From assembly GCA_035559815.1 (NCBI GenBank), contig DATMAT010000014.1, positions 1-45,165 on the forward strand: 45,165 nt of DNA. Reading direction: 5' to 3'. The translations under genes and the position numbers were made by a program. The notes under the pieces are model-generated. The model searched no databases. It was not told where the DNA came from and saw only the letters and a program-made list of their open reading frames with translations. This DNA is from Thermodesulfobacteriota bacterium (lineage in GTDB: Bacteria > Desulfobacterota_D > UBA1144 > Nemesobacterales > CSP1-2). Of this stretch, positions 3,299-16,421 are shown in pieces (within the stretch, counting starts at the first letter, position 1; every line of letters starts with the position of its first letter).

Positions 3299-4015
3299 GT
3301 GGAAAGCAGCGAGTTAGATATAATTGCCGAGGGTGTAGCGAAATCCTACGGAAATTTTCAGGCTCTCAAGGGACTAAATTTAAGAGTAAAAAAAGGTGAA
3401 TTTCTTTCCATCTTCGGTCCCAACGGAGCGGGCAAAACAACACTCATAAAATTACTTTCCACGCTTACCAAGCCTACTTCGGGAAGATTAATCATATCCA
3501 ATCATGATATAAAAAAAGAGCCGGATAAGGTGCGTAGTCTGGTCGGTGTAATCTCCCATGACCCTTATCTTTACGAAAGTTTGAGCGCCGTAGAGAATAT
3601 TAGATTCTTCGCCGAAATGTATGGTCTCCCCCATCCGGTAGAGAGGGCCTTCGAGTTGGTCAAAGAGGTCGGACTGGAGAGCAGGATGTACGACCTGGTG
3701 AGGACCTTTTCTCGCGGGATGAAACAGCGCCTGGCCGTTGCCCGGGCGATTGTCCACGCCCCCAAGATTCTACTCCTGGACGAGCCCTACACCGGTTTAG
3801 ACCAGAATGGGGCCAGGATATTTGGGGAGATGCTCAGATGGCTTAAGTCGGACGGCAGAACGATTATAATGACCACGCACAATATTGCCGAGGGACTAGA
3901 GATAAGTGACCGGGTCTCGATTTTAAGCGGAGGCAGAATCGTTTACGAAAGTCAAATAGATGGAGTTGAAAAGGAAAGGTTCAATGAGATTTATCTTGAG
4001 AAGGTGAACTTATAA
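3299..4015 (+). CDS. ccmA: Haem exporter ATP-binding protein CcmA
   Basis: This is the ATPase subunit of the CcmAB(CD) transporter of cytochrome c maturation System I, which drives release of holo-CcmE from CcmC. The 238-residue protein has Walker A GPNGAGKTT (about 40-48), ABC signature FSRGMKQR (137-144), Walker B ILLLDEP (157-163) and switch His in MTTHN. The Q-loop position reads ISHDP, with His instead of Gln. The start is GTG with AAGGA about 10 bases upstream. ccmB follows on the same strand after 65 bases. The call as CcmA rather than a generic ABC ATPase rests on the adjacent ccmB and on ccmC-F 8 kb downstream. Confidence 0.9.
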   Translation: MESSELDIIAEGVAKSYGNFQALKGLNLRVKKGEFLSIFGPNGAGKTTLIKLLSTLTKPTSGRLIISNHDIKKEPDKVRSLVGVISHDPYLYESLSAVENIRFFAEMYGLPHPVERAFELVKEVGLESRMYDLVRTFSRGMKQRLAVARAIVHAPKILLLDEPYTGLDQNGARIFGEMLRWLKSDGRTIIMTTHNIAEGLEISDRVSILSGGRIVYESQIDGVEKERFNEIYLEKVNL

Positions 4016-4028
4016 CCATAACTACACT

Positions 4029-4055
4029 AAGACGCGAAGTTTTTCTTTGTGTCTT
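4029..4055 (+). repeat. Hairpin between ccmA and ccmB
   Basis: AAGACGCGAAG (4029-4039) and CTTTGTGTCTT (4045-4055) form an 11-bp stem, allowing two G-T pairs, around a loop of five T. It sits between the ccmA stop and the ccmB start. The sequence belongs to the type of dispersed 'CACGAAGACACAAAG' repeats seen between genes in many bacteria. It could affect the relative expression of ccmA and ccmB, but that is inference. Confidence 0.55.
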
Positions 4056-4080
4056 GGAGACTTCGTGGTTAAAAAATCCA

Positions 4081-4749
4081 ATGAAAAAGATCTGGGCGAT
4101 AGTCTGGAAAGACATAATAACCGAACTGAGGACCAAGGAGCTTTTCTCCTCCATGTTCACCTTCGCTCTCCTGATTATGGTTATCTTTAACATTGCTTTT
4201 GATTTTTCGGCCGAGCTTATCCCTGTCGCCGCCCCGGCCATACTCTGGGTGTCATTTACCTTTGCCGGGGTTTTAGGCCTAAGCCGGTCGTTTGCCCTGG
4301 AGAAGGAAGGCGATGCGATTCAAGGGCTTCTGCTCACCCCTACGGACCGAAGCCTCATCTTCTTTGGAAAGATGGTCGGCAACCTGATTTTTGTGTTTGT
4401 AGTGGAGATGATTATTCTTCCCCTCTTCGTACTCTTCTTCAACTTCGATTTGAGCAATCACTTGTTACCGTTACTCCTGATTATTTTTCTGGGTACGGTA
4501 GGGTTTGTGTCCGTAGGAACCCTGTTCTCGGCGATAGCCCTGAGCACAAAGCTACGCGAGGTGCTTCTGCCGATTTTGCTTTTTCCCATAATCATCCCGG
4601 TAATCGCAAGCTCGGTAAAGCTCACCACCGCCATATTGGACGGCAGGACGATTGGTGATGCTTTGTCTGCTTTTAAGGTTCTGGTTTCTTTCGACATAGT
4701 TTTTGTGGTAGTTTGCGCAGTTATTTTTGAATATGTACTTGAGGAATAG
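4081..4749 (+). CDS. ccmB: Haem exporter membrane protein CcmB
   Basis: This is the membrane subunit of the CcmAB transporter in System I cytochrome c maturation. The 222-residue protein has a short cytosolic N-terminus (IVWKDIITELRTKE), then six hydrophobic segments, and ends with the typical CcmB tail LVSFDIVFVVVCAVIFEYVL. The family landmark LGLSRSFALEKE, followed by GLLLTP, is present near residues 66-86. The frame is open from a TTG at 4054, but the ATG at 4081 gives the family-type N-terminus. The DNA of its last 75 bases or so recurs at 12413-12487 at roughly 80% identity, in a broken ccmB copy just before ccmC. Confidence 0.93.
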   Translation: MKKIWAIVWKDIITELRTKELFSSMFTFALLIMVIFNIAFDFSAELIPVAAPAILWVSFTFAGVLGLSRSFALEKEGDAIQGLLLTPTDRSLIFFGKMVGNLIFVFVVEMIILPLFVLFFNFDLSNHLLPLLLIIFLGTVGFVSVGTLFSAIALSTKLREVLLPILLFPIIIPVIASSVKLTTAILDGRTIGDALSAFKVLVSFDIVFVVVCAVIFEYVLEE

Positions 4750-4800: not shown

Positions 4801-5238
4801 CTACTTTAGAACCGTCGGGTCTTTCTCATGCTTACGAGCTGTCCTTGAATTTGTCGATCCGCCTTTTCTATCCCTTCCATATGAATAGCACACGCCACAC
4901 GTCTCGACCGCCTTTCGCCAGGAGCCGAAGTGATACGTGGCTGCTGACATTAAACTTATCATCCCATTGTCTCTAAAATTCCTTGGCCTTAAGCTTTGAC
5001 CACTTTCATATAGTTTTTTTATCTCCTTTAATACTTTTTCCCGAGACCATTTCTTTCGATTTCTAGACTCTTCATAATCTATCCCGCAGGCCTCTAGAGC
5101 TTTCCTCCACGAACCGAAAACCTTCCGGGCCTTAAGGTAAAGCCTTGGGTGTTCCTTAGCCACATTGGAAGGTTTTTTACCGGGGACTCTATATAGGGCG
5201 TTAATCTCGCTTCTTATTTTCTCGGCTTGTTTCTTCAC
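4801..5238 (-). CDS. Small protein with homing-endonuclease-associated (HNH_repeat) motifs
   Basis: This 145-residue basic protein has two copies of a repeat ending in FGSWRKA(L/V)E(A/T)CG, at residues about 8-55 and 68-115. This matches the HNH-associated repeat often found next to HNH or homing endonucleases and thought to bind DNA. No HNH nuclease motif is present. The GTG start lacks a good Shine-Dalgarno sequence, and the frame overlaps an upstream 73-codon frame (5235-5456) by GTGA. It may be the remnant of a longer gene. It sits at the left edge of the cytochrome cluster, where it could mark a mobile insertion. The domain is fairly clear; whether the gene is intact is not. Confidence 0.55.
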   Translation of the reverse strand: MKKQAEKIRSEINALYRVPGKKPSNVAKEHPRLYLKARKVFGSWRKALEACGIDYEESRNRKKWSREKVLKEIKKLYESGQSLRPRNFRDNGMISLMSAATYHFGSWRKAVETCGVCYSYGRDRKGGSTNSRTARKHEKDPTVLK

Positions 5239-5801
5239 GTAATAAACAAGCGCAAGAGGGGTGCCAAAACGTAACTCACTATAGAGACTGTCATTTTAAG
5301 GAAGGCTCTATCAAATAGTTGCCCGATTTTCAGACAACTTACAATCTTTAACCTTGCTCTTTTGTATTGTCTTCTGAGATGTACGCCCAGATCTTTATGA
5401 TACGCATAACCCAAATAAGCTTGGAGCCGTAGCCTAACCAGGGTTTTCCACTTCACGCGTCTCAGGTTTTTTCTTCCTAATTCTAAGGGTTTTACCTGAT
5501 TGTTCCATCTGAGTAGAGCGTGTATAAGCAGAAGAAGGTAACAGTGCTTGAATGTTTCAACAGGGTTAGAAAAAAGTAAAAAAGAGAGGCTTTTATTAAG
5601 TTTTATTCGTATCCTAATCAGGTGACATCTAGAATTTGATTTTACTTGCAGCTCAATCCATCTCTTCCCAGATTTTAATCCTAGAAGGGGAGTGTATTAA
5701 TTGTTAGTTTTATTAGGTTATCACTAAAATTGTCCCTTGATTCAGGAAGCATTTTATAATAAAAAGTGAGTAACAAAGATAAGCTAGGAGAGGGTGGGGA
5801 A
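5239..5801. other. AT-rich spacer before the decahaem cytochrome gene
   Basis: About 560 bases with no gene I can support. An open frame on the minus strand (5235-5456, 73 codons) shows no recognisable domain and no ribosome binding site, so it is not called. The stretch must hold the promoter of the electron-transfer cluster if that is transcribed separately. I see no confident -35/-10 pair, operator or riboswitch. Confidence 0.4.
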
Positions 5802-8195
5802 ATGCTTGCTATTTTTCAATATTTTCTGAAATGTTCTTTTTATTTCTCTCCATTATTTAATCTTGTCTTGATATTTATATTCTCTTTCGGTCTCATCGGC
5901 GGTTGTGGTGGTGGGGGTGGAGGTGGTGGGGGAGTGGTTCCTCCTCCGGAAGTAACTGGAAATAAGCTTAATGTGGAGATCATCGGGGCTTCGATATCGC
6001 CTGACAGAAGACCGATCGTAACTTTCAGGCTTACGGATGATGAGGGAGACCCGATAGGAACGGACGGGGTTAGCATGAATTGGGTAATTTCCAGGATCGA
6101 AAGAGGAAAATCCGAGTACATTGACTATATTACCCGGGTTCAAACAAGCCCTACTACCGGCGAATCAGCCGTACAGGCCAGTTCAGAGAGTTCGTCAGAG
6201 GGTAGTTTTCAGAACCTGGGCAACGGGGTATTTACCTACACATTTGCTTTTGTTCTTCCGGAGAACTTTGATAGCAATATTACTCATACGGTGGGTGTTT
6301 ATGCGACTAAGACTATAGGAAGCCAGAGATTTGTCTCAAACGCCACTTTCGATTTTATACCTGCGGGCGGTCAGGTCTCGACCGTTAGGGATATAGTAAG
6401 AGTGGAAACATGCAATACCTGCCACGACCCGTTAGAAGCGCACGGAGGTGCTAGGAGGGACGTTAGACTATGCGTGCTTTGTCATTCCACGGAGATTGAA
6501 GACCCGTCTAGCGGAGAAATTGTAGAACATATAGACCCGGGAACCGGAAACAACATCGGTTTTGAAATCATGATCCACAAGATTCATTACGCCGAAGAAC
6601 TCCCAAGCGTCCAGGCTGGTATTCCTTACCGGTTCGAGGCTTTTATGGATCAAATACTGGACTTTTCACATGTAGCCTTTCCCCAGGATGCGAGGAACTG
6701 CACCAAGTGTCATACCGGGGCAACCCAGAGCGAGAACTTCAAGAATAACCCCACTAGAAATGCCTGCGGCTCTTGTCATGATGATGTTAACTTTGTGAGT
6801 GGAACAAACCATGGCGGAGGTATACAGCTCGACGATAACAATTGTTCCGGATGCCATATTCCGTTCTTCGGTAAGGAGTTTGACCTGTCGGTAGAAGGCA
6901 GTCATACGATACCGGTGAAATCGGCGCAGATTGCCGGAGTAAATTTTGAGATTGTGCGGGTTGAGAGTGCAGAAACCGGAGCCTCCACGGTAAAACCCGG
7001 CGAGCATCCCAAGGTCACCTTTAATATCACCACTGACCTGGGAGAAACAATACCACCCACGGATATGAATTTTTTAAGACTTACCCTAGCCGTACCGACA
7101 AGGGAATATTCGGGCCAGGATTACAATGGTGACGGGGAGATAGTGTCAGGCGACCCGACAAGCCCCTGGACGCCCGGTGGGGAGAATTATATACAGGAGA
7201 CGATTAATGTACCCGGTGCAGCCGAAGGCCCTGACGCCGACGGTAATTTTACTTATACCTTTAAAGCCATGATACCTAACGATGCGTCTGGAAGCGGAGC
7301 CGTGGGGATTGAAGGCTATAAGTGCGCCACTGTTCAGGGAGCGAATCAAAGAAGGGGAGGGATAGCATGTACTCCCCCTCCTAATTCGCCGGACCTCAAT
7401 GGAAATGGAATAGAGGATGTAGGCGAGGTGTTTAACGAGGTCCGTTTTGCTGGACACAACGTGGTTTCTTATTTCCCTATAACCGATGAAGAAGCCGTTC
7501 CGCGGCGGATGGCGGTTGATACCTCTACAAAATGTATAGCTTGCCACGGGGTATTTTCCAGGGATTTCAGTGTCCACGGCAACATTAGAAACGACAGTGA
7601 ATACTGTGCCCTGTGCCATAACCCTTCGCACGACACGTTGAGCCGACAACTCCCTCCCGTAGGTGAGACCGCTTTGACCAATTCCCTCGATTTTAAGGTC
7701 TTTATTCATAAGATACATACTGGAGAGAATTTAACTAAGCAACCGTATTTACTATATTCGCCACCGGGCGGTACTTTCCCCAACCAGTCTGAAAGGGCGG
7801 TTAATTTTGGGGAGGTTCGCTATCCCGGCAATACAGCAGACTGTGAGGCATGTCATTTGAGGGGGACAAATACCCTAATTCCAGGAACCGGTGTTTTGGG
7901 GGATGACGTGTTGCCATCTACTAACCACGAGTTCACAAGGGGATTTAACACCAAGACAATCACAGAAACCTTCTTTACTCAACCGGTTATTTCTGTTTGC
8001 ACCTCTTGTCATGACAGTCTTGGAGTGAGTGCGGACGGAGAAGCGTTAACCGGGGAAGGCCATCTTGCCGGCCCGCAGGCCGAGGGTGATTGCGCCAACT
8101 GTCACATAGCTGGTGATCCACTCGGCGTGGAAGAGGTGCATCTGCCTCCACTTCCGCCTGAGGAGAGAATAATTCGTCCGCAACCGGTAGATTAA
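5802..8195 (+). CDS. OmcA/MtrC-family decahaem c-type cytochrome, surface lipoprotein
   Basis: Predicted outer-surface terminal reductase of an extracellular electron-transfer conduit. From the ATG at 5802 it has 797 residues. A signal peptide ends in lipobox LIGGC at about residue 35, followed by a run of nine Gly as a flexible linker. There are ten CxxCH haem sites in two groups of five: CNTCH, CVLCH, CTKCH, CGSCH, CSGCH (about 204-352) and CIACH, CALCH, CEACH, CTSCH, CANCH (about 578-768). Each group follows a beta-rich domain, the MtrC/OmcA four-domain plan. The frame also opens at a GTG (5766), but AGGAGAGGGTGGGGA directly precedes the ATG. Downstream neighbours supply the barrel and periplasmic haem proteins. 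The electron acceptor (metal oxide, partner cell or other) cannot be told. Confidence 0.93.
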   Translation: MLAIFQYFLKCSFYFSPLFNLVLIFIFSFGLIGGCGGGGGGGGGVVPPPEVTGNKLNVEIIGASISPDRRPIVTFRLTDDEGDPIGTDGVSMNWVISRIERGKSEYIDYITRVQTSPTTGESAVQASSESSSEGSFQNLGNGVFTYTFAFVLPENFDSNITHTVGVYATKTIGSQRFVSNATFDFIPAGGQVSTVRDIVRVETCNTCHDPLEAHGGARRDVRLCVLCHSTEIEDPSSGEIVEHIDPGTGNNIGFEIMIHKIHYAEELPSVQAGIPYRFEAFMDQILDFSHVAFPQDARNCTKCHTGATQSENFKNNPTRNACGSCHDDVNFVSGTNHGGGIQLDDNNCSGCHIPFFGKEFDLSVEGSHTIPVKSAQIAGVNFEIVRVESAETGASTVKPGEHPKVTFNITTDLGETIPPTDMNFLRLTLAVPTREYSGQDYNGDGEIVSGDPTSPWTPGGENYIQETINVPGAAEGPDADGNFTYTFKAMIPNDASGSGAVGIEGYKCATVQGANQRRGGIACTPPPNSPDLNGNGIEDVGEVFNEVRFAGHNVVSYFPITDEEAVPRRMAVDTSTKCIACHGVFSRDFSVHGNIRNDSEYCALCHNPSHDTLSRQLPPVGETALTNSLDFKVFIHKIHTGENLTKQPYLLYSPPGGTFPNQSERAVNFGEVRYPGNTADCEACHLRGTNTLIPGTGVLGDDVLPSTNHEFTRGFNTKTITETFFTQPVISVCTSCHDSLGVSADGEALTGEGHLAGPQAEGDCANCHIAGDPLGVEEVHLPPLPPEERIIRPQPVD

Positions 8196-8205
8196 GGGTA
8201 ATTAA

Positions 8206-8505
8206 ATGAAGAGGTCCCTGCTTGTAGCGTCAGTCTTTCTACTTCTCGGTTGTGTAGGCGGTGACGACGAGGGGCAAGATTTCGGCAACATATTCGAGGG
8301 TACTGACGGACTAATCTTAACTCAGGAAGACCACCCGGACGGCTGGGGTCGTTCGGATTGTTTTGCCTGCCATCCCATAAATGAGATACATAGGGTAGAC
8401 CGAACCGGAGGGCTTCTCCCTTTGGAAGATATACAAGAGTTTGTCGAGCAGGAGGGGCTTGATAGCTGTCCCATATGTCACGGGGATAATGGAGTGATGG
8501 AGTAG
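8206..8505 (+). CDS. Dihaem cytochrome lipoprotein
   Basis: A 99-residue protein with a short lipoprotein signal (MKRSLLVASVFLLLGC) and two haem sites, CFACH near residue 53 and CPICH near 89. The middle is acidic. It starts 10 bases after the decahaem gene, and its TAG stop abuts the GTG of the barrel gene, so it is part of the same operon. Its small size and lipid anchor suggest an accessory haem carrier at the outer membrane, on either face. I do not recognise a named family, and its role is inferred from haem content and context. Confidence 0.85.
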   Translation: MKRSLLVASVFLLLGCVGGDDEGQDFGNIFEGTDGLILTQEDHPDGWGRSDCFACHPINEIHRVDRTGGLLPLEDIQEFVEQEGLDSCPICHGDNGVME

Positions 8506-9807
8506 GTGAGAAAGACACTTATAGCCGCAACATTTTTTGCTTATATATCAATATCTATCAATGGTGTAACAGTTTACGGTCAAGTCTATGGTCAGGGCGA
8601 GGTATTTTTACCCCAATCCTTGGGCTTCTTTGGAAATTTTTATTCGGTATTCCAAGCACCTAGTCCTTTACTTCGGCCGGATGGAACCGAAAAAAACATT
8701 TATCCTTTCTACCAGTATCTGGAATTCAACACCGTCAGCCCGGACGGGCGTGTCTCGTTTAACACCTTTTTGAGAGGAAGGGAAATCTTCAACGGAGAGG
8801 ACTATTCCTTTGATGTGTATAATGCTTTTTTTCAGTTTAACAATACCTCCAGGTCTCTCGAATTGCGATTGGGAAGGCAAATCATCACCGAGAGCTTTAA
8901 TTTTTTCCTGCTGGACGGGGGGCTGGTCCGGTATCGTCCGGTCGATGGAATCGAGCTTGTGGCCTATGGGGGTTATCAGGACAAGGATATTCAACCGGAG
9001 CCTGAAGAGCCCCTGGAGAGTTCTACCGTGTTCGGTGTCAAGATCAAGTCCGATAAGCTTCTCGGCTCGATAATATCCCTCGGTTATGAATTCTTCAACC
9101 CGGACGATTTTTCCACCAGACATTTCATTAACTTTGCCTTCAACCGGGTGATTCCCTTCACCAAATCTGCGGACATTTATAGTTTGGTCGAGTTTGACGT
9201 CGGGGAGGGGAATCTCGCCCTCTTTACCGTCGGCGTCGGGATTACCCCGCTCAAATCGGTGCATTTAAACCTGGAATACGATACCTACAAACCGGATGAG
9301 GACCGTGATGAATACCTGATAGATGCCATCTTTGACCTGTTTTCTATAAGTCGGCTTCACGAGGCCAGGGTCGGGGTTACGTACTTACCTACCAGTTATC
9401 TCGAAGTTTCGTCGAGTTTTTCGTATGCACACTATGATGTATTAGAGGGGACATCGACCAATGGATACATCTTTAAGCTCGGGTTTTCCTGGGACTTCTG
9501 GCGGGAGATTGGCCTCCGGGCATTTCAAGGTTTTTATTACATGGATGCCCGGGACGATGACCGGGCAGTAGGATTAAATTTTGGAATATCGGAAGAAATA
9601 TTCAGAGGGCTCGACCTTCAGTTCTCTTTTGCCTACGCTCACTTTGAGACAATCACTAATAAAGACGGCAACGCCTTCAGCTACATTATGGGGGCTGAAT
9701 ACCTCTTAACCAGAGACCTGGTATTAAAGGCTGGAGTGGAAATAAACACCAACCCGGATTTTGACAAGGATATAAGAACTAACTTAGGAGTGAGCTATTA
9801 TTTCTAA
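8506..9807 (+). CDS. Outer-membrane beta-barrel of the cytochrome conduit (MtrB-like role)
   Basis: A 433-residue protein with a signal peptide ending near YGQVYGQ, then regularly alternating amphipathic strands with acidic turns and a C-terminal GVSYYF. A terminal aromatic is typical of proteins inserted by the BAM complex. It is flanked by decahaem, dihaem and heptahaem cytochromes, so it most likely forms the sheath that lets haem proteins pass electrons across the outer membrane. It is much shorter than classical MtrB/PioB (about 650-700 residues or more), and I see no N-terminal CxxC motif as in Shewanella MtrB, so it is probably an analogue rather than a close homologue. The start is GTG directly after the previous stop. 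Confidence 0.8.
   Translation: MRKTLIAATFFAYISISINGVTVYGQVYGQGEVFLPQSLGFFGNFYSVFQAPSPLLRPDGTEKNIYPFYQYLEFNTVSPDGRVSFNTFLRGREIFNGEDYSFDVYNAFFQFNNTSRSLELRLGRQIITESFNFFLLDGGLVRYRPVDGIELVAYGGYQDKDIQPEPEEPLESSTVFGVKIKSDKLLGSIISLGYEFFNPDDFSTRHFINFAFNRVIPFTKSADIYSLVEFDVGEGNLALFTVGVGITPLKSVHLNLEYDTYKPDEDRDEYLIDAIFDLFSISRLHEARVGVTYLPTSYLEVSSSFSYAHYDVLEGTSTNGYIFKLGFSWDFWREIGLRAFQGFYYMDARDDDRAVGLNFGISEEIFRGLDLQFSFAYAHFETITNKDGNAFSYIMGAEYLLTRDLVLKAGVEINTNPDFDKDIRTNLGVSYYF
9786..9802 (+). promoter_or_regulatory. Shine-Dalgarno sequence suggesting an ATT start
   Basis: AGGAG at 9786-9790 lies inside the end of the barrel gene. It is followed 6 and 9 bases later by two in-frame ATT codons (9797 and 9800) of the heptahaem frame. 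Nothing similar precedes the GTG at 9821. This position fits translation from ATT, as known for infC and pcnB in other bacteria, with coupling to the barrel gene. Confidence 0.4.
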
Positions 9808-9820
9808 TAAGAAATTATTC

Positions 9821-10438
9821 GTGGGAGTTCTTTTTATTGTTTCTTTTCTCATCGCGGCCTTGTATGGGTGTCCCACGCAGGATGGGGAGACGGAATGGGG
9901 ATGGAAAGCCAAGCGGCCTCAAAGGATGCAGGATACCTTCTCACACGAGGTGCATAAAAAGGTTTTTGAAAAAGAGGGCTTTGGCTGTTCTGTCTGCCAT
10001 ACAATGGGGATAGAGATTCCGGAAGAGACAGAGGAAGAGAAAATGGTTGAGATTTCTAAGGAGGCGTTCTTCCCGGGGAAAGAAACGTGTCATTTTTGTC
10101 ACTACAACCCGCAGGCGGGCAACAGGGCACCGGATGAATGTGGTTTATGTCATTTCAACCTCAGGGAGATTCAGCCGGCCAACCATAACTTCGACTGGAT
10201 GACCAAGCATGCCGTCTTTGCCAAGGCCGATGAAGAGGACTGCCAAAGCTGCCACAGCCCCCGGTTCTGCGAGGACTGCCATAAAAGAAGGGATCTTCCG
10301 ACTCTTAGGTTTCATGACCGGAATTTCCGGTTTGTTCATGCAATCGAGGCCAGGGCAAATCCCCGGGCGTGCGGGAACTGCCACGAACTCAAGTCTTTCT
10401 GTGTTAAATGCCATACGGAGGGTGGGTATGACCGGTAG
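9821..10438 (+). CDS. Heptahaem c-type cytochrome lipoprotein
   Basis: Seven haem sites are present: CSVCH, CHFCH, CGLCH, CQSCH, CEDCH, CGNCH and CVKCH, in about 205 residues. The signal peptide ends at lipobox ALYGC, so the protein is a lipoprotein, probably the periplasmic side of the conduit, handing electrons to the barrel and decahaem proteins. From the GTG at 9821 the signal peptide has no positive charge and no Shine-Dalgarno sequence. The same frame is open back to ATT codons at 9797 and 9800, placed 6-9 bases after AGGAG (9786-9790), and these would add a normal basic n-region (SNKKLF). The true start may therefore be a rare ATT overlapping the barrel gene's end. The 3' end overlaps the next gene by 11 bases. 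Confidence 0.9.
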   Translation: MGVLFIVSFLIAALYGCPTQDGETEWGWKAKRPQRMQDTFSHEVHKKVFEKEGFGCSVCHTMGIEIPEETEEEKMVEISKEAFFPGKETCHFCHYNPQAGNRAPDECGLCHFNLREIQPANHNFDWMTKHAVFAKADEEDCQSCHSPRFCEDCHKRRDLPTLRFHDRNFRFVHAIEARANPRACGNCHELKSFCVKCHTEGGYDR

Positions 10439-11024
10439 GTCGTTGGTGCTCAGTCTCTTATTAATATTATTGCCGGCGGGTCTTTCTGCCCAGGAAGATG
10501 AAGAGGTAAACCCGCACAAGGAGATGCTGGAGGACCAAACGGTGTGCCTAGACTGCCATACGAAGGTTCCCAAAGAAGGTGAGACCAGCCCTGATTATTT
10601 TCTGGTTGACCTTCCGTCGGAAAACTGTCTCGGCTGTCACGAGGAGATGGAACATGCAGGGGTAAAGGAGCACCAGGGGAAAGAGGCCAAGCCTCTTCCC
10701 GGGGATGAAAATGGAAAAATCGCCTGTTTCTCCTGTCACGACCCCCATCCGGAAGGGGCGATAAAGGGAAGGGTCGTATATGATGCCGATATTAACGAAA
10801 GGAGCAGAAGGTTTATTGAACTGGTCGTAGTACCGTACGTCGAGGAAGAGGTTGAGGATAAAATTAAGGTAGAAGAAAATAAGGAAGTTTATCTAAGGCT
10901 TCCCATAGCTAATAATGAGCTATGTGCAAAGTGCCATGAAACTTTTAAAGATACTGATTGGAGGAGGTATGTAATATGGGACAAGTTTTATGCTCCGTTT
11001 TCTATAGACCCGTTCTCATACTGA
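10428..11024 (+). CDS. Periplasmic tetrahaem c-type cytochrome
   Basis: A 198-residue protein with a Sec signal peptide (MTGRSLVLSLLLILLPAGLS) and four haem sites: CLDCH near 40, CLGCH near 65, CFSCH near 100 and CAKCH near 167. The long spacing between haems 3 and 4 contains an E/K-rich stretch (VEEEVEDKIKVEENKE). The frame is open far upstream, but the ATG at 10428 has GGAGGGTGGG just before it and gives the signal peptide; it overlaps the heptahaem gene by 11 bases. It is probably a soluble shuttle between the quinol oxidase and the outer-membrane complex. It resembles doubled-CxxCH periplasmic cytochromes in general; no closer family is recognised. Confidence 0.88.
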   Translation: MTGRSLVLSLLLILLPAGLSAQEDEEVNPHKEMLEDQTVCLDCHTKVPKEGETSPDYFLVDLPSENCLGCHEEMEHAGVKEHQGKEAKPLPGDENGKIACFSCHDPHPEGAIKGRVVYDADINERSRRFIELVVVPYVEEEVEDKIKVEENKEVYLRLPIANNELCAKCHETFKDTDWRRYVIWDKFYAPFSIDPFSY

Positions 11025-11482
11025 GTGTTTTCGTTTTCTCAGCCAGCCTGAGCTGGGCGCAAGATAAAAGCCAGGTTGACGCCGGGCGCAAGATCTTCAT
11101 CGAGAAGAGGTGCTATACATGCCATACGGTAAACGCCGAGGCAAAGTTGATCGAGAAGGAGAAAGAGGAGTTTGCCAAGGCCAAGGGGGTAGAGGTCAAA
11201 CCGAAGGAAGAGGACGAGGACGGTGAGGAAGACCAAAAGACCGGCGGCGACCTCTCCGCAGTGGGTAAGATGAGGAGTGCAGAGTGGATAGAGAAATTTG
11301 TCCAGGATCCCAAGCCCTATTTTCAGGACAACCCGGAATGTGCCAAGAAAGCGAAGAAAAAATACAGAAAGAGGTTCAAAGGAACGAGCGAAGAACTCAC
11401 TTCACTGGTTGCATTCCTGTCGAGCCTTAAATATGAAGAGCAGCAGGATAAGGATTTCAAGTCCTGCCTGAAAGAGGAATAG
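10976..11482 (+). CDS. Monohaem cytochrome c with charged insert and no clear distal Met
   Basis: A 168-residue protein. The signal peptide ends near residue 29 (ASLSWAQ) and one haem site, CYTCH, lies at 46-50. An E/K/D-rich insert (about 57-88) separates the haem site from a class I-like C-terminal helix (GTSEELTSLVAFLSSLK). In related domains the segment before that helix has an MP motif that supplies the sixth haem ligand; here it reads YRKRFKGT, without Met. The ATG at 10976 follows GGAGGAGG and overlaps the tetrahaem gene by 49 bases, so the two are probably translationally coupled. Likely a periplasmic carrier, but haem ligation may be altered. Confidence 0.85.
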   Translation: MGQVLCSVFYRPVLILSVFVFSASLSWAQDKSQVDAGRKIFIEKRCYTCHTVNAEAKLIEKEKEEFAKAKGVEVKPKEEDEDGEEDQKTGGDLSAVGKMRSAEWIEKFVQDPKPYFQDNPECAKKAKKKYRKRFKGTSEELTSLVAFLSSLKYEEQQDKDFKSCLKEE

Positions 11483-11523
11483 ATGTAATTCGTATAACCA
11501 CGGTTTTGGACTAGAGGGCCCCG

Positions 11524-12150
11524 ATGCACGGTATGGAGTTAGGCTTAATAAAATCGGTTATAGTGGCGCTATCCGTTGCGACCATAATCCTGGTTGTCTA
11601 TTCCGTTTTTATCAGGAAGAAGAATTTCATAGAGGATACCAATTCTAAGTGGCTTCTTTTTATCGGGTTTTTTCTTCTTTCTCCTCTGGTTTACTTCCTG
11701 AATTATGGTAAAGCGCTCGAGCAGTCAAAGACGGTTGATTTCTGCAACTCCTGCCACGTAATGAATGGATATATTGAGGACCTTAAAAACCCGGACAGCG
11801 AGCATATAGCCGCCCTTCATTACCATTACCGGTGGATATCGGATAATCAGTGCTATCAATGCCACAGCGAGTATGGGCTTTTTGGGACCTTTAAAGCAAA
11901 GATGTCCGGGATCGGGCATATAATGTCTTACTACGTGGTGGGTTATGAAACTCCACTCAAATTAAAAGGGACCTACAACAACCAGATTTGTCTTCACTGC
12001 CACGGCCCGGTGAAGGAGTATCAAGAAGTTTCAGAACATGAAGAATACGAGCAAGATATAGAGCTGAATAAGCAGTCCTGTTTCGGCGCGGAATGTCACG
12101 TATCACCGCACCCAGAGGATGCTTGGAAGGGTATTAATAATGGAGAATAA
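11524..12150 (+). CDS. NapC/NrfH/CymA-like membrane tetrahaem quinol dehydrogenase
   Basis: Probable entry point of electrons from menaquinol into the conduit. The 208-residue protein has two hydrophobic helices (about 10-30 and 43-61) before the haem domain, where classical NapC has one. Haem sites are CNSCHVM at 74-80, CYQCH at 110-114, CLHCH at 156-160 and CFGAECH at 186-192. The first has the CxxCHxM signature in which Met is the distal ligand in NrfH/CymA. The last is a CX4CH site, unusual in this family but known in cytochromes c3. The ATG at 11524 follows a 41-base gap after the monohaem gene. The 3' end overlaps the next small gene. Confidence 0.85.
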   Translation: MHGMELGLIKSVIVALSVATIILVVYSVFIRKKNFIEDTNSKWLLFIGFFLLSPLVYFLNYGKALEQSKTVDFCNSCHVMNGYIEDLKNPDSEHIAALHYHYRWISDNQCYQCHSEYGLFGTFKAKMSGIGHIMSYYVVGYETPLKLKGTYNNQICLHCHGPVKEYQEVSEHEEYEQDIELNKQSCFGAECHVSPHPEDAWKGINNGE

Positions 12151-12346
12151 AAAGTTCAACAGTATTATAGTGCTTGCCGGGATATTGAATATTCTGGGCT
12201 TGCTTTCGATAGTCCTGACTGCTTTTAACCTAACCCCTATTACGCTCATAATCTCGCTTACATTTGGCGGCGTCTTGATAGGCCTTGCGCTGGTTCTTTA
12301 CTTATATGTAGTGATTCAGGACCTGAAGGCCAGGAAGGTTCTTTGA
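12140..12346 (+). CDS. Small two-helix membrane protein
   Basis: A 68-residue protein with two hydrophobic helices (about 8-30 and 34-58) and a basic C-terminal tail (QDLKARKVL). The ATG at 12140 is preceded by GGAAGGG and overlaps the end of the NapC-like gene by 11 bases, so translation is probably coupled. I recognise no family. Its position suggests a subunit or assembly helper of the NapC-like protein. Its TGA stop is followed, in the same frame, by the broken ccmB 3' end. Confidence 0.7.
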   Translation: MENKKFNSIIVLAGILNILGLLSIVLTAFNLTPITLIISLTFGGVLIGLALVLYLYVVIQDLKARKVL

Positions 12347-12514
12347 GCCGGAGCTTCGGTAATAAATCCTGCACGAGGAAGGGTGAATTTAGTCAGAGCC
12401 TTTTTAGGTATATTGTCCGCTTTGAAAGTTCTGGTTTCATTCGATATAATCTTTTTGGTTATTTGCGCCGTTATTTTTGAGTACGTGATAAGAGTAGACA
12501 CGGATGCAGGATAA
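12347..12514 (+). pseudogene. ccmB: Remnant of a second ccmB (3' end only)
   Basis: Translated in the frame after the TGA at 12344-12346, this stretch reads ...LSALKVLVSFDIIFLVIC, then AVIFEYVIR, and ends at TAA 12512-12514. The intact CcmB ends LSAFKVLVSFDIVFVVVC, then AVIFEYVLEE. At DNA level, 12413-12487 matches 4663-4737 at roughly 80% by eye. There is no start codon, no ribosome binding site and no 5' three quarters. It lies 55 bases before ccmC, where an intact ccmB stands in typical ccmABC operons. It is therefore a leftover of a duplication or rearrangement that placed the cytochrome cluster between ccmAB and ccmC. Confidence 0.85.
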
Positions 12515-12569: not shown

Positions 12570-13232
12570 ATGATAAAAATTCTTCTGGGTTTAACCTTTG
12601 TTTCTATGATAGCGTCTCTTTATGCGGTGTTTATCTACGCCCCGACCGAGGCGGTTATGGGGCATATTCAGAGGATCTTCTATTTTCATATGGGCACGGT
12701 GTGGGTGGCCACGGTCGCATTTATCATTGTGTTCATAGCCAGTATTCAGTACCTGAGAAAGGAGACCCGTTTCTGGGACATCCTAGCCTTTACCTCTGCA
12801 GAGATCGGCGTTCTGTTTATCACCCTCACTATCATAACCGGGAGCATCTGGGCAAAGCCGGTATGGGGCACCTGGTGGACATGGGATCCCCAGCTTACTA
12901 CTACATTCATTCTCTGGATGCTTTACATCGTCTACCTGATATTACGCTCAGCGGCAGGAAACGATTTAAAGAAGGCGAGGTACGCCGCCGTATTTGGAAT
13001 AATCGCTTTTCTTGACCTCCCTCTGGTTTATGCCTCGGCCAGACTGATGCGCGGCATTTCACCGGTAGTCTTTGGCGGGAGAGGAGGGGGCATAGCCCCG
13101 GAAATGATGGTGGCCCTTTTGATCACCCTTTTTGCGTTTACTCTTTTGTTCATCTTTATTCTTATAGAGAGAATTAATTTGGAGAAAATGAAAGATGATA
13201 TCGCCAGGATCAAGCTCGAGGAGGCTGCGTAG
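12570..13232 (+). CDS. ccmC: Haem handling protein CcmC
   Basis: CcmC is the membrane protein that binds haem at its periplasmic face and transfers it to CcmE. The 220-residue protein has six hydrophobic helices and the tryptophan-rich haem-handling motif WAKPVWGTWWTWDPQLT (about 94-110). The first axial His is in FYFHMG (His40). The region that normally carries the second axial His reads RLMRGISPVVF, with Ser where His is expected, so haem ligation may differ from E. coli. It is followed after 5 bases by ccmD. The family is certain; the missing His deserves checking by alignment. Confidence 0.93.
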   Translation: MIKILLGLTFVSMIASLYAVFIYAPTEAVMGHIQRIFYFHMGTVWVATVAFIIVFIASIQYLRKETRFWDILAFTSAEIGVLFITLTIITGSIWAKPVWGTWWTWDPQLTTTFILWMLYIVYLILRSAAGNDLKKARYAAVFGIIAFLDLPLVYASARLMRGISPVVFGGRGGGIAPEMMVALLITLFAFTLLFIFILIERINLEKMKDDIARIKLEEAA

Positions 13233-13237
13233 TAGGG

Positions 13238-13408
13238 ATGCCATATTTATTCTGGGCGCAACTAGTTTGTTGGTTAGGTTTATTCATATACACATTCATT
13301 CTTTTCAGGAAAAACCAAATTTTAAGAAAAGAGATAGAGGCGCTCAAGGGTGCTAATCACAAAACCGGCCAGCAGGGTGCTGGCTGGCATAGCCAGGGGG
13401 CGAATTAA
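13238..13408 (+). CDS. ccmD: Haem exporter accessory protein CcmD
   Basis: This 56-residue reading frame between ccmC and ccmE is easy to miss because of its size. It starts MPYLFWAQLVCWLGLFIYTF, a single transmembrane helix, followed by a basic turn and a short coiled coil (RKNQILRKEIEALKG) and a Gly/Gln-rich tail. That is the CcmD pattern: one helix, then a charged cytosolic segment. CcmD binds CcmABC and helps release haem-loaded CcmE. It starts 5 bases after ccmC and ends 3 bases before ccmE. Call by position and architecture; the sequence of this family is poorly conserved. Confidence 0.8.
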   Translation: MPYLFWAQLVCWLGLFIYTFILFRKNQILRKEIEALKGANHKTGQQGAGWHSQGAN

Positions 13409-13411
13409 GAG

Positions 13412-13825
13412 ATGCTTAGAGGAAGGATCAAATTTATCATAGCGATAGCGGTTATCGTCGTTACGCTGTCCTATCTGGTATACGGCGGGGTGAAGGAGGC
13501 CAAGGTTTATTACCTCACGGTAGGGGAGCTAAAGGAGGGGGTTCCTTCCGTGTACAAGGATAAAGTAAGGGTTTCGGGAACGGTAGTTCCAGGCTCGATA
13601 AAGAAGGACTTGGATGGTAGCCTCGAATTTAAGATCACCGATGGAGAAAAGACATTAGATGTTCATTATAAGGGAATAATCCCGGATATATTCAAGGATG
13701 AGGTAGAGGCGGTGGTGGAGGGGGTATACACGCCGGAGAATGTGTTTCAGGCGAGCGTGCTCCTGGCCAAGTGCCCAACCAAATACGAATCGCTTGACCG
13801 GTTAGAGAAGGGAGAGAACATCTAA
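13412..13825 (+). CDS. ccmE: Haem chaperone CcmE, Cys-type variant
   Basis: CcmE carries haem covalently from CcmC to CcmF in the periplasm. The 137-residue protein has an N-terminal anchor helix (about 7-24) and the beta-barrel domain (KVRVSGTVVPGSI; DVHYKGIIPD; VEAVVEGVY). The haem-attachment motif is AKCPTKY, C121-x3-Y125, instead of the usual HxxxY. Cys-type CcmE is known from a variant System I of archaea and some Deltaproteobacteria that lacks CcmH, and no CcmH with an LRCxxC motif is seen in this window. It is packed between ccmD and ccmF with 1-3 base gaps. Confidence 0.93.
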   Translation: MLRGRIKFIIAIAVIVVTLSYLVYGGVKEAKVYYLTVGELKEGVPSVYKDKVRVSGTVVPGSIKKDLDGSLEFKITDGEKTLDVHYKGIIPDIFKDEVEAVVEGVYTPENVFQASVLLAKCPTKYESLDRLEKGENI

Positions 13826-13826
13826 G

Positions 13827-15836
13827 ATGGTCGAGACCGGGGTCATTTCTGTATTCCTGTCGTTCATAATTTCCGTTTATATCCTGATTGCATCTCTGGC
13901 CGGGGGAAAGACCGGAAGGCGTGAGTTAATAAAGAGTGCGGAGAACGGGGCAGTCGCCTTATTCTTTCTCCTGACCCTGGCTTGTATTTCATTGATAAAT
14001 GCCCTTCTCACTCGTGATTTCAGCCTTAAGTATGTAGCATTGAATTCGAGTAGGGACCTTTCCACCATATACACTGTCACCGCCCTCTGGGCCGGGCAGG
14101 CCGGTTCACTACTCCTCTGGTCATGGATACTCTCAATCTATATGGCGCTGGTGGTTGTTCTAAATAGGGAAAGAAATAGGGGGCTGATGCCTTTCGTCCT
14201 GGGGGTTCTGGCGGCGGTATCCTGTTTTTTCACCTACCTGATTGGGTTTGTGGAGAGCCCGTTTGAGAGGCTTCCTTTTGTTCCTGCTGATGGGAATGGA
14301 CTTAATCCTATACTTCAGAATCCCTACATGGCTATTCATCCGGTTACGCTCTACATAGGTTATGTGGGGATTACGGTTCCCTTTGCCTTTGCCCTGGGAG
14401 CCCTTATCAGCGGAAGGTTGGGAGACGAGTGGATAAGAATCTCCAGGGCCTGGACTATCTTCTGCTGGACATTTTTGAGCCTAGGTCTACTTTTGGGGGC
14501 GCGCTGGGCTTACCTGGAGCTGGGCTGGGGAGGATATTGGGCCTGGGACCCGGTGGAGAATGCGGCGTTCATGCCCTGGCTAGTGGCAACTGCATTTCTT
14601 CACTCGGTCATGATTCAGGAGAAGAAAGGAATGTTGAAGAAATGGAACATGGCTCTGGTAATACTCACCTTTTTCCTGGCTATATTCGGGACGTTTATCA
14701 CCAGAAGCGGCATAATCTCCTCCGTTCATTCCTTTGCCCAGTCCGATATAGGGCCTTATTTCTTGGCTTTTATCGGCGTAATACTGCTCTTTTCCTTCGG
14801 TATGTTCATACTCAGGCTCGATGACCTGAAGAGCGAGGATCATTTCGATTCTATCCTTTCCCGGGAGAGCGCCTTTTTATTCAACAACCTCATTTTCTTG
14901 GGCGCGGCCTTTTCCGTATTCCTGGGGACCATATTCCCGATACTGACCGAGGCGATCAAAGGGGAAAAAATACTGGTGGGTCCGCCCTATTTTAATCGGG
15001 TAAACGTGCCGATGGGCTTGATTTTGATATTGCTCATGGGGGTGGGGCCGCTGATATCGTGGAGAAAGGCGTCCAGGCAAAATCTAACGAGGAATTTTTT
15101 ATATCCGACCATTTTCGGTCTTCTGACCGGGATAGTGCTATTCATTCTCGGTATCAGAGAAATCGTAGCGCTGGTCTCTTTCGGTCTCTGCGCGTTTGTT
15201 TCTGCTACCGTGTTTACCGAATTCTTCAGAGGGGTAAGGGTGCGCAGCAGCCGCGGTGAAAATTATATGATTGCTCTTTACCGTCTCATCTCCAGAAACC
15301 GGAGAAGGTATGGCGGGTACATAGTTCATCTGGGGGTGGTGCTGATAGTGATAGGTATAACTGCATCGTCGGCTTTCGTTACTCAGAAGGAGGCGACCCT
15401 TAAAAGAGGCGAAACACTGAGCATAGGAAAGTACACGATGAGGTTTGACCAGCTTAGGCGGTACAGTACTCCGGCAAAGGATGGGACGGCGGCCACCCTA
15501 ACGGTATTCAACCGAGAAAAAGAGATCGGGAGTATGGTACCGGAGAAGAACCTTTATAAATACGAGGGGAACCGGGAGATAAACCAGGAGACGGAGGTGG
15601 CGCTCCGCTCCACTTTTAAAGACGACCTTTACGTCATTCTTACCGGCGTGGACGATACCGGGGCGGCAAATTTCCGGGTGCTGATAAACCCGATGGTCAG
15701 TTGGATATGGGCAGGGGGGGTGGTGCTCCTTCTCGGGGCGATCGTAACCATGTGGCCGGCCGGAGTGGAGAGGAGGGCGGAAGCGGGTGCGAGGTATAGC
15801 GTAGGGGTTTCGAAGGATACCATAGTCAAAGCCTGA
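13827..15836 (+). CDS. ccmF: Haem lyase subunit CcmF
   Basis: CcmF is the large membrane protein that attaches haem from CcmE to CxxCH sites of apocytochromes. The 669-residue protein has many transmembrane helices and the periplasmic tryptophan-rich loop LGWGGYWAWDPVENAAFMPW (about 232-251). The four conserved His of the family are present: H171 (AIHPVTLY), H259 (AFLHSVM), H301 (SVHSFAQ) and H501 (YIVHLGV). The soluble C-terminal domain follows (about 515-620), with a last helix near 632-650. The ATG starts one base after the ccmE stop. It is of normal length and intact. Confidence 0.95.
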   Translation: MVETGVISVFLSFIISVYILIASLAGGKTGRRELIKSAENGAVALFFLLTLACISLINALLTRDFSLKYVALNSSRDLSTIYTVTALWAGQAGSLLLWSWILSIYMALVVVLNRERNRGLMPFVLGVLAAVSCFFTYLIGFVESPFERLPFVPADGNGLNPILQNPYMAIHPVTLYIGYVGITVPFAFALGALISGRLGDEWIRISRAWTIFCWTFLSLGLLLGARWAYLELGWGGYWAWDPVENAAFMPWLVATAFLHSVMIQEKKGMLKKWNMALVILTFFLAIFGTFITRSGIISSVHSFAQSDIGPYFLAFIGVILLFSFGMFILRLDDLKSEDHFDSILSRESAFLFNNLIFLGAAFSVFLGTIFPILTEAIKGEKILVGPPYFNRVNVPMGLILILLMGVGPLISWRKASRQNLTRNFLYPTIFGLLTGIVLFILGIREIVALVSFGLCAFVSATVFTEFFRGVRVRSSRGENYMIALYRLISRNRRRYGGYIVHLGVVLIVIGITASSAFVTQKEATLKRGETLSIGKYTMRFDQLRRYSTPAKDGTAATLTVFNREKEIGSMVPEKNLYKYEGNREINQETEVALRSTFKDDLYVILTGVDDTGAANFRVLINPMVSWIWAGGVVLLLGAIVTMWPAGVERRAEAGARYSVGVSKDTIVKA

Positions 15837-15890: not shown

Positions 15891-16421
15891 GTGGAAAAGA
15901 TATTTATCCTGATAATAGTTATGGCAGTAGCGGTTTTTATATCCCTTCCTTTTTTCAGGGGGAGGGTTGAAGAAGACTCCGAAGACCCGGATAGGCCGAA
16001 GGGTGATAGGGAAGCCGAATTAAAGAGACTCAACGCGGAGAAGGAGTCTCTTCTCGCTGCGATCAAAGAGGTCGGTTTTGACTATGAAGTGGGAAAGCTT
16101 ACGAAAGAAGACTACCAGGAACTGGAGACAAAATACAAGACTGAGGCAGCCTTGCTTCTCCAGAATATAGAAAAGCTGGAAGCAGAAATGAATGATGCTG
16201 GTTTAAAAGACGGGTTAGAAGAAGAAATTAGAAAGACTCGAAGGACCAAATTGGCTGATGACAAGGGGCTCGAAGAGGAAATTTTGCGTGCTCGCAAGTT
16301 GAGGTCTAAGGGCCTTGAGCATCTTTGTTCCAAGTGTGGGGCTTCTTATCAGCCCGAAGACAGATTTTGCTCCAAGTGCGGGACCAAATTAGGTGAGGAT
16401 CAAACTAGACAGGCGTATTAA
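15891..16421 (+). CDS. Membrane-anchored coiled-coil/zinc-ribbon protein of the ccm cluster (CcmI-like)
   Basis: A 176-residue protein with one N-terminal transmembrane helix (about 3-22), a charged coiled-coil region with the helical-hairpin motif FDYEVGKLTKEDYQELETKY (63-82), and a C-terminal zinc ribbon, CSKCG...CSKCG (C146, C149, C160, C163). The GTG start has AGGAG 6 bases upstream. Such proteins occur in ccm clusters and recall the membrane-plus-helix part of CcmI, which presents apocytochromes, but the zinc ribbon is not part of classical CcmI and no TPR region is seen. The next gene overlaps it by 29 bases and shares the hairpin motif. Confidence 0.7.
   Translation: MEKIFILIIVMAVAVFISLPFFRGRVEEDSEDPDRPKGDREAELKRLNAEKESLLAAIKEVGFDYEVGKLTKEDYQELETKYKTEAALLLQNIEKLEAEMNDAGLKDGLEEEIRKTRRTKLADDKGLEEEILRARKLRSKGLEHLCSKCGASYQPEDRFCSKCGTKLGEDQTRQAY

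Follow-up and report, generated by a model that had tools for sequence, protein, structure and literature searches.

A putative quinol-driven electron conduit with a Pcc-type core and an OmcA/MtrC-type cap in a Candidatus Dadabacteria genome

Eight co-directional genes at positions 5802-12346 of a stretch of DNA from a Candidatus Dadabacteria genome (45,165 nucleotides, the window) most probably encode all parts of an electron conduit across the cell envelope that serves extracellular respiration, driven by quinol and working outward. Judged by its sequences, the conduit appears to combine a dihaem-barrel-heptahaem core of the Pcc type with an Mtr-type surface cap and an exchangeable quinol-oxidising input. 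New here are an Mtr-type cap above a core of the Pcc type, the heptahaem cytochrome as a lipoprotein and the dihaem lipoprotein within the core. The genes are spaced by −49 to +41 nt and encode, in order, proteins with 10, 2, 0, 7, 4, 1, 4 and 0 haem motifs, together 28 (27 CX2CH and, in the NapC-like protein, one CX4CH with the sequence CFGAECH). When the region was shuffled 200 times (first-order), no ORF of at least 60 aa contained more than one CXXCH. An earlier note on this DNA had described eight same-strand genes with short gaps or overlaps, 28 haem sites and a quinol-to-surface cytochrome conduit; genes and motif count agree with what was found, and the conduit is well supported by the protein families and the conserved gene order.

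In the proposed path, quinol would be oxidised in the inner membrane by the NapC/CymA-like protein and its two-helix partner, and the electrons would be transferred through the periplasm by the tetrahaem and monohaem cytochromes. The heptahaem lipoprotein, together with the dihaem lipoprotein and lodged in the 22-strand barrel, would then carry them across the outer membrane to the decahaem lipoprotein, which would pass them to an outside acceptor, for instance another cell, humics or Fe(III) and Mn(IV) minerals. The whole set was inserted between ccmB and ccmC in this lineage. The genome (98% complete) contains several genes of the haem-copper oxidase family, and a RuBisCO large subunit was not found in it, which is compatible with a heterotroph that exports electrons as oxygen runs short.

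Proteins of the proposed conduit

The decahaem surface lipoprotein (5802..8195, +) is a true member of the OmcA/MtrC family: it scores 379.8 bits with TIGR03507 (cut-off 209.3), matches PF22113 twice, has 10 CX2CH motifs and a lipobox (IGGC), and among PDB sequences it matches MtrF (E = 1.2e-27) and also the solved OmcA/MtrC proteins. It is both the OmcA/MtrC-family decahaem lipoprotein that characterizes MtrCAB and the outer-membrane multihaem cytochrome that most Pcc clusters include. An OmcA/MtrC cap normally works on MtrAB. The dihaem lipoprotein (8206..8505, +; 2 CX2CH) is part of the conserved core; its lipobox is kept across the Dadabacterial copies, and its homologues adjoin barrel and heptahaem genes in Dadabacteria, UTPRO1 and Nitrospirae.

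The Pcc-type outer-membrane barrel (8506..9807, +) has 22 predicted strands in an AF2 model of moderate quality (pLDDT 75, pTM 0.62). For the barrel no Pfam match exceeded the cut-off, and for barrel and heptahaem protein there was no good match in NCBIfam or among PDB sequences, the PDB searches giving nothing meaningful. Foldseek with the moderate barrel model returned generic porins and FimD ushers, MtrB not being among the 50 matches listed, which with a model of this quality carries no weight as counter-evidence. The MtrB/PioB barrel (PF11854) is absent from this genome and 11 relatives (12 Dadabacterial genomes). Pcc clusters are defined by a porin-like outer-membrane protein of 18-22 predicted strands adjoining a periplasmic cytochrome of 5-14 haems (PMC4245776); here the AF2 model has 22 strands and the neighbour 7 haems.

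This neighbour (9821..10438, +; 7 CX2CH, lipobox LYGC) presumably inserts into the barrel from the periplasmic side. In the earlier note it was listed as a periplasmic cytochrome. Its lipobox is, however, conserved with the pattern L-[YVI]-G-C, and the protein is therefore a lipoprotein. Six non-motif histidines and His91, which lies inside a CHxCH motif, are invariant and are candidate distal ligands; their number would suffice to give all seven haems bis-His ligation. With a pLDDT of 43 the AF2 prediction for the heptahaem protein was unusable, and no argument on fold or complex was drawn from it. Barrel and heptahaem genes stand side by side in Dadabacteria, UTPRO1, Desulfurobacteriaceae, Nitrospirae and genome G399, which is presumably a Denitrovibrio.

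The tetrahaem periplasmic cytochrome (10428..11024, +; 4 CX2CH, Sec-type N-terminus) is likely to link the quinol oxidase to the core. The monohaem periplasmic cytochrome (10976..11482, +) matches PF00034 (E = 9.9e-8) and has partial similarity to CcoO/FixO; a lysine-rich patch and two extra cysteines are invariant among its homologues. The NrfH/NapC/CymA-like membrane tetrahaem quinol dehydrogenase (11524..12150, +) shows what is characteristic of this group, namely an N-terminal helix, a NapC/NirT domain (PF03264, 33.1 bits, cut-off 24.1) and four haem motifs, of which the first is CXXCH[VI]M and the fourth is a CX4CH kept in all homologues. Its best NCBIfam match is TIGR03153 (NrfH; 43 bits, E = 4.4e-11), below the cut-off of 134.2, and assignment as the curated NrfH equivalog was rejected. 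Directly 3′ of its gene lies that of a small two-helix membrane protein (12140..12346, +), a position kept in 8 genomes.

The ccm locus and exchanges among relatives

To the left of the conduit lie ccmA and ccmB (3299..4749, +), to the right ccmC, ccmE and ccmF (12570..15836, +). CcmB (E = 3.4e-27), CcmC, CcmE and CcmF were identified by Pfam; ccmA is named by position, since Pfam shows an ABC ATPase only. The layout of ccmAB and ccmCDEF given in the earlier note is thus borne out except for ccmD, for which a short ORF between ccmC and ccmE (13238-13408), lacking a Pfam match, is a possible candidate. Just before ccmC, the 3′ end of ccmB is present a second time as a remnant (12413..12486, +). 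Its 74 nt are 82% identical to the ccmB stretch 4663-4736 (E = 4e-18), and it is the scar of the insertion of the conduit into the ccm operon. The embedding is real but lineage-specific: what the earlier note had seen holds for this genome and HR37, whereas in other families of the order ccmABC are contiguous without the conduit between them. The insertion ties the genes of a 28-haem conduit to those of the apparatus by which these haems are attached. A further cytochrome at 16393, which had been counted with the conduit haems, belongs to the ccm locus because it follows ccmF in every relative examined, including those with the conduit elsewhere.

Scans for promoters and terminators gave results near chance; the best promoter-like match (12422-12450) falls inside the ccmB remnant. 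Divergent from the conduit, a small HNH_repeat protein (4801..5238, −; PF18780, E = 1.6e-11) is encoded, which is a candidate DNA-binding regulator; its gene lies divergently beside the decahaem gene in 6 of the 9 loci whose flank could be used.

The cluster is conserved across the Dadabacterial lineage and is complete also in one MAG labelled Polyangiaceae. The same gene order, for which a search in other genomes had been proposed, was found in three Dadabacterial families and the UTPRO1 MAG. The quinol-oxidising end varies: in G002, G004 and G005 the place of the NapC-like and two-helix genes is taken by genes for a Rieske protein, a cytochrome b and two pentahaem proteins. In B48T1B5 the monohaem gene is not followed by a NapC-like gene, which speaks against the proposed conduit. 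The tetrahaem proteins of G002, G004 and G005 form a separate clade (66-78% alike among themselves, 40-52% versus the rest), and yet the G005 barrel is still 81% like that of the window's genome. Since Rieske/cytochrome b genes replace the NapC-like gene and the decahaem cap also recombines among relatives, both the input module and the cap look exchangeable. Gene-to-gene distance correlations were confounded by the species tree and were kept out of the evidence.

Known conduits and alternative readings

In G067, which we take to be Desulfurobacterium thermolithotrophum, matches to the barrel (E = 8.8e-20) and to the heptahaem protein (phmmer E = 5.4e-43) are neighbours, a sequence relationship to Pcc systems. 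By sequence matching the pair resembles that of Pcc group III, in which a barrel (21-25% identity) and, as the next gene, a heptahaem lipoprotein (about 35-39%) also stand together. Group III clusters (Shi et al., 2014, PMC4245776) occur in D. thermolithotrophum, Thermovibrio ammonificans and Denitrovibrio acetiphilus and are known from genome analysis alone. The Desulfurobacteriaceae loci differ in that they are without the OmcA/MtrC decahaem cap and the dihaem, monohaem and NapC-like genes; instead they contain a 7-haem protein, an 8-motif membrane cytochrome, a b561-type cytochrome and a 24-28-haem protein. A 364-aa protein of G067 has six CX2CH and two CX3-5CH motifs, as reported for Dester_0351, and 22 histidines versus the reported 24, perhaps owing to a start-site difference.

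With MtrCAB-CymA of Shewanella the cluster shares the OmcA/MtrC-family surface decahaem protein, the NapC-family quinol dehydrogenase and the overall logic. In contrast, there is no MtrB/PioB barrel, the barrel here having fewer strands than MtrB, and heptahaem and dihaem proteins replace the 10-haem MtrA, no MtrA-type decahaem cytochrome being found among the 7-, 4- and 1-haem cytochromes of the cluster (TIGR03508 below cut-off). Clusters similar to OmbB-OmaB-OmcB/ExtABCD of Geobacter were seen via G365, termed Geobacter-like only from its above-cut-off matches to a Geobacter cytochrome c7 model, and the link is weaker than that to Pcc group III. The barrel profile there finds a 403-aa barrel with 8-haem and 9-haem cytochromes (E = 1.9e-27) and an 11-haem, barrel, 5-haem, 5-haem set (E = 3.1e-11), which differ in haem numbers and caps and are without a NapC-like gene. 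OetABI, the conduit of ANME-partner sulfate reducers, likewise has a barrel with a periplasmic and a surface cytochrome; by description, which is all that was compared, its extracellular partners are unlike OmcA/MtrC and resemble OmcX/OmcS (PMC10553843). The earlier note had matched barrel and heptahaem protein to no known set and suggested a distinct conduit type. The lack of good database matches is real, but because the pair is distantly related to the Desulfurobacterium/Thermovibrio Pcc pairs the conduit is not wholly unknown: rather than a type entirely of its own, it is a new variant in which a Pcc-type core bears an MtrC/OmcA cap.

That the barrel is an ordinary porin merely sitting among cytochromes is hardly credible: its best PDB folds are ordinary porins and ushers, but with low TM-scores, and against this stand the adjacency to heptahaem genes described above and the fact that all 16 of the 16 domain-wide barrel-profile loci examined adjoin multihaem cytochromes. 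Proteins of the CymA type, and conduits too, are able to run in either direction, and the genome has several genes of the haem-copper oxidase family. With a partner cell, an electrode or Fe(II) as donor, the same conduit might carry electrons inward to the quinone pool or to oxidases, as Pio/Mto do. We consider this rather unlikely, however, because without a RuBisCO large subunit there is no sign of Calvin-cycle lithoautotrophy, and because outward Mtr systems typically have a decahaem cap at the surface, while iron-oxidising Mtr clusters often do without one (PMC4245776).

Alternatively, the electrons might go not to minerals but to an extracellular reductase dedicated to the conduit, or to a soluble acceptor such as sulfur, selenite, iodate or nitrite; a nitrite-type reductase would then be fed by the NrfH-like protein. 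Such a role would suit the NrfH model as best, if sub-threshold, NCBIfam match of the NapC-like protein and the Desulfurobacterium and Thermovibrio relatives, which are sulfur reducers (PMC4245776). It is nevertheless improbable, given that the cap is of the OmcA/MtrC type and that in the loci examined neither the cluster nor its surroundings showed a recognisable reductase gene.

Implications for Mtr and Pcc conduits and for Dadabacteria

According to earlier work (PMC4245776, PMC12133095), Mtr and Pcc conduits are not related phylogenetically, and for Desulfobacterota the question has been raised of what MtrC does without adjacent MtrAB (PMC12133095). An MtrC-type cap over a Pcc-type core in a genome without MtrB bears on this question. 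Chances seem about even that the conduit represents a modular hybrid class, in which a fixed dihaem-barrel-heptahaem core would be combined with an OmcA/MtrC cap and, via a matching tetrahaem adaptor, with a NapC-like or a Rieske/cytochrome b input. If this is true, parts of Mtr and of Pcc conduits can replace one another in nature. The input and the cap, which look exchangeable, offer natural part-swaps that can be tested. The host is a little-known bacterium of soil and subsurface, and with the conduit the mostly uncultured Dadabacteria gain a concrete, testable respiratory trait.

Genes and protein families of the conduit

The eight co-directional genes at 5802–12346 (+), which the earlier note had read as a conduit from quinol to the cell surface, are separated by gaps of −49 to +41 nt and contain 28 haem motifs (27 CX2CH and one CX4CH), whereas in shuffled sequence even one CXXCH per open reading frame almost never arises; the genes are thus real, and the reading as a conduit stands. 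The decahaem protein, which caps the conduit, belongs to the OmcA/MtrC family (TIGR03507; 379.8 bits at a cut-off of 209.3), has MtrF as nearest solved structure, and is the sole OmcA/MtrC-type protein found in the genome, its two PF22113 domains being the only above-cut-off matches genome-wide. The NapC-like protein (208 aa) is of the NapC/NirT family (PF03264), with NrfH as top, sub-threshold NCBIfam match. For the barrel, the dihaem protein and the two-helix protein, Pfam and NCBIfam searches gave no family above cut-off. The heptahaem protein has seven haem motifs, and an outer-membrane lipoprotein is a better description of it than a soluble periplasmic cytochrome, because Dadabacterial copies whose N-terminus is complete share a conserved lipobox; several copies from Desulfurobacteriaceae carry a similar x-S/G-C.

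In the monohaem cytochrome (10976–11482) two extra cysteines and a lysine-rich patch are invariant across all homologues; an obvious conserved Met ligand was not seen. In six loci a small HNH_repeat protein (PF18780), possibly a dedicated regulator of the conduit, is encoded divergently beside the decahaem gene: at 4801–5238 (−) in the window, and in loci cut from other genomes at L062 1191–1628, L024 13121–13579, L025 6540–7055, L026 14723–15115 and L068 1916–2509.

Kinship of the core and distribution of the cluster

The barrel and the heptahaem protein do have known relatives, contrary to what had been supposed: their homologues are adjacent in one Nitrospirae MAG and in Desulfurobacteriaceae, of which Desulfurobacterium thermolithotrophum and Thermovibrio were already placed in group III of the porin-cytochrome conduits (Pcc) (Shi et al., 2014; PMC4245776). 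In the Nitrospirae locus the genes run 6-haem, barrel, heptahaem, dihaem, tetrahaem; the dihaem protein thus accompanies the core. A domain-wide search with the barrel profile gave matches in 41 of 387 genomes, and a multihaem cytochrome adjoins the barrel homologue in all 16 non-Dadabacterial loci examined (16/16). Among the weak but significant matches are two clusters of a Geobacter-like genome, which by haem count resemble the OmbB/OmaB and ExtAB arrangements (comparison counts from PMC6148476 and PMC4245776). With 22 strands, the predicted barrel model would fit the range published for Pcc porins (18–22) and fall short of the 28 given for MtrB (PMC4245776); MtrB/PioB was absent from the 12 Dadabacterial genomes searched.

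Some loci have features of their own. In L112 (genome G188) the barrel homologue (5382–7037) itself contains four CXXCH motifs, possibly as a fused cytochrome-porin; next come a heptahaem protein and one with 17 haems, and a divergent ccmF is close by. Clusters of Desulfurobacteriaceae (L027 14972–18046; L070–L080) end in a 24–28-haem protein (890–1025 aa) adjoining a propeller-like protein (about 266 aa). In L081 (SXOM01000172), from a GC-rich "Proteobacteria" MAG, relatives of the heptahaem, dihaem and OmcA/MtrC-family decahaem proteins occur together in a stretch of 10 kb; this may be yet another variant.

The search for the same gene order in other genomes found it across Candidatus Dadabacteria (CSP1-2, B48T1B5, RIFCSPHIGHO2_12, CR_Sed) and in bacterium HR37 and AH_259_B03_O07 (AH_259), which by computed kinship are of the same family; relatives in family f6, whose genomes are small, gave no match. 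The order decahaem, dihaem, barrel, heptahaem, tetrahaem, monohaem is kept where contigs are long enough and the tetrahaem protein is of the window type, and the NapC-like and two-helix genes come next in HR37, AH_259, G008, G019 and NAT122. The last, labelled "Ectothiorhodospiraceae", is probably mislabelled, since its barrel is 81–82% like those of the Dadabacterial G008 and G027. The complete eight-gene set is also present in UTPRO1 (Polyangiaceae, Myxococcota, according to NCBI) with 48–57% identity over the five proteins compared, which makes a transfer between phyla likely, although this MAG may instead be contaminated or misclassified. It should be noted that the presence of conduits in Dadabacteria is not new: porin-cytochrome operons related to those of Geobacter were reported there by the FeGenie authors in 2020 (PMC7005843). 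A description of the present architecture was not found in the openly readable literature, to which the search was confined.

Insertion into the ccm operon and apparent exchange of parts

In the window ccmB and ccmC are separated by the conduit and the divergent HNH_repeat gene, and 74 nt that copy the 3′ end of ccmB (82% identity) survive shortly upstream of ccmC, at 12413–12486. In HR37 the ccmB C-terminus at the contig edge is followed by the HNH gene and the conduit and then directly by ccmCEF. The embedding noticed earlier thus holds for these two, but not for G007, G008, G019 and G027, where ccmA, B, C, E and F are consecutive (some with one or two additional genes) and the conduit lies elsewhere; in G003 ccmB adjoins ccmC. 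G002 and G005 still have a monohaem homologue (weak in G005) upstream of ccmC; the same strand of that contig carries the conduit at a distance of about 25–36 kb. In G004 a degenerate fragment of ccmB stands before ccmC. These observations point to what was probably a single insertion, in the ancestor of some members of family f1, with further ones later. Within the ccmB remnant falls the region's best promoter-like match (TTGAAA-17-TATAAT, 12422–12450), which could perhaps serve as a new promoter for ccmC. The protein at 16393–17889, in which a cytochrome c is joined to carboxypeptidase-regulatory-like and membrane parts, is, judged by gene order, part of the ccm locus, because every relative examined has it after ccmF and a gene for a zinc-ribbon CcmI-like protein.

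Trees pair the barrel of the window with that of G005 and the barrel of AH_259 with that of G004, while the tetrahaem proteins of G002, G004 and G005 form a separate clade (66–78% identity within, 40–52% to outside proteins) with a support of 1.0; the statistics here consist solely of FastTree supports from short alignments, and contig ends truncate some of the conduits. In these three genomes the tetrahaem gene is not followed by NapC-like and two-helix genes. A monohaem gene with Rieske, cytochrome b and two pentahaem genes follows it in G002 and G005 and lies about 10 kb downstream in G004. The cap changes partner as well: that of AH_259 is 80% like that of G019 and 54% like that of G004, whereas its barrel is 73% like that of G004. 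Most simply, these sequences can be read as a constant core (dihaem, barrel, heptahaem) whose cap and input are interchangeable. The points of interest are a hybrid of Pcc core and Mtr cap, an apparent exchange of input modules and a scarred insertion into the ccm operon.

Proposed electron route

By analogy with the known families, the NapC-like protein would pass electrons at the inner membrane to the tetrahaem and monohaem cytochromes, these to the heptahaem and dihaem proteins inside the barrel, and these via the decahaem protein to an outside acceptor. The decahaem cap and the NapC-type input favour outward flow, as does the absence of a RuBisCO large subunit from the genome. Since the genome carries several genes of the haem-copper oxidase family, the bacterium probably breathes oxygen and would use the conduit when oxygen is short.
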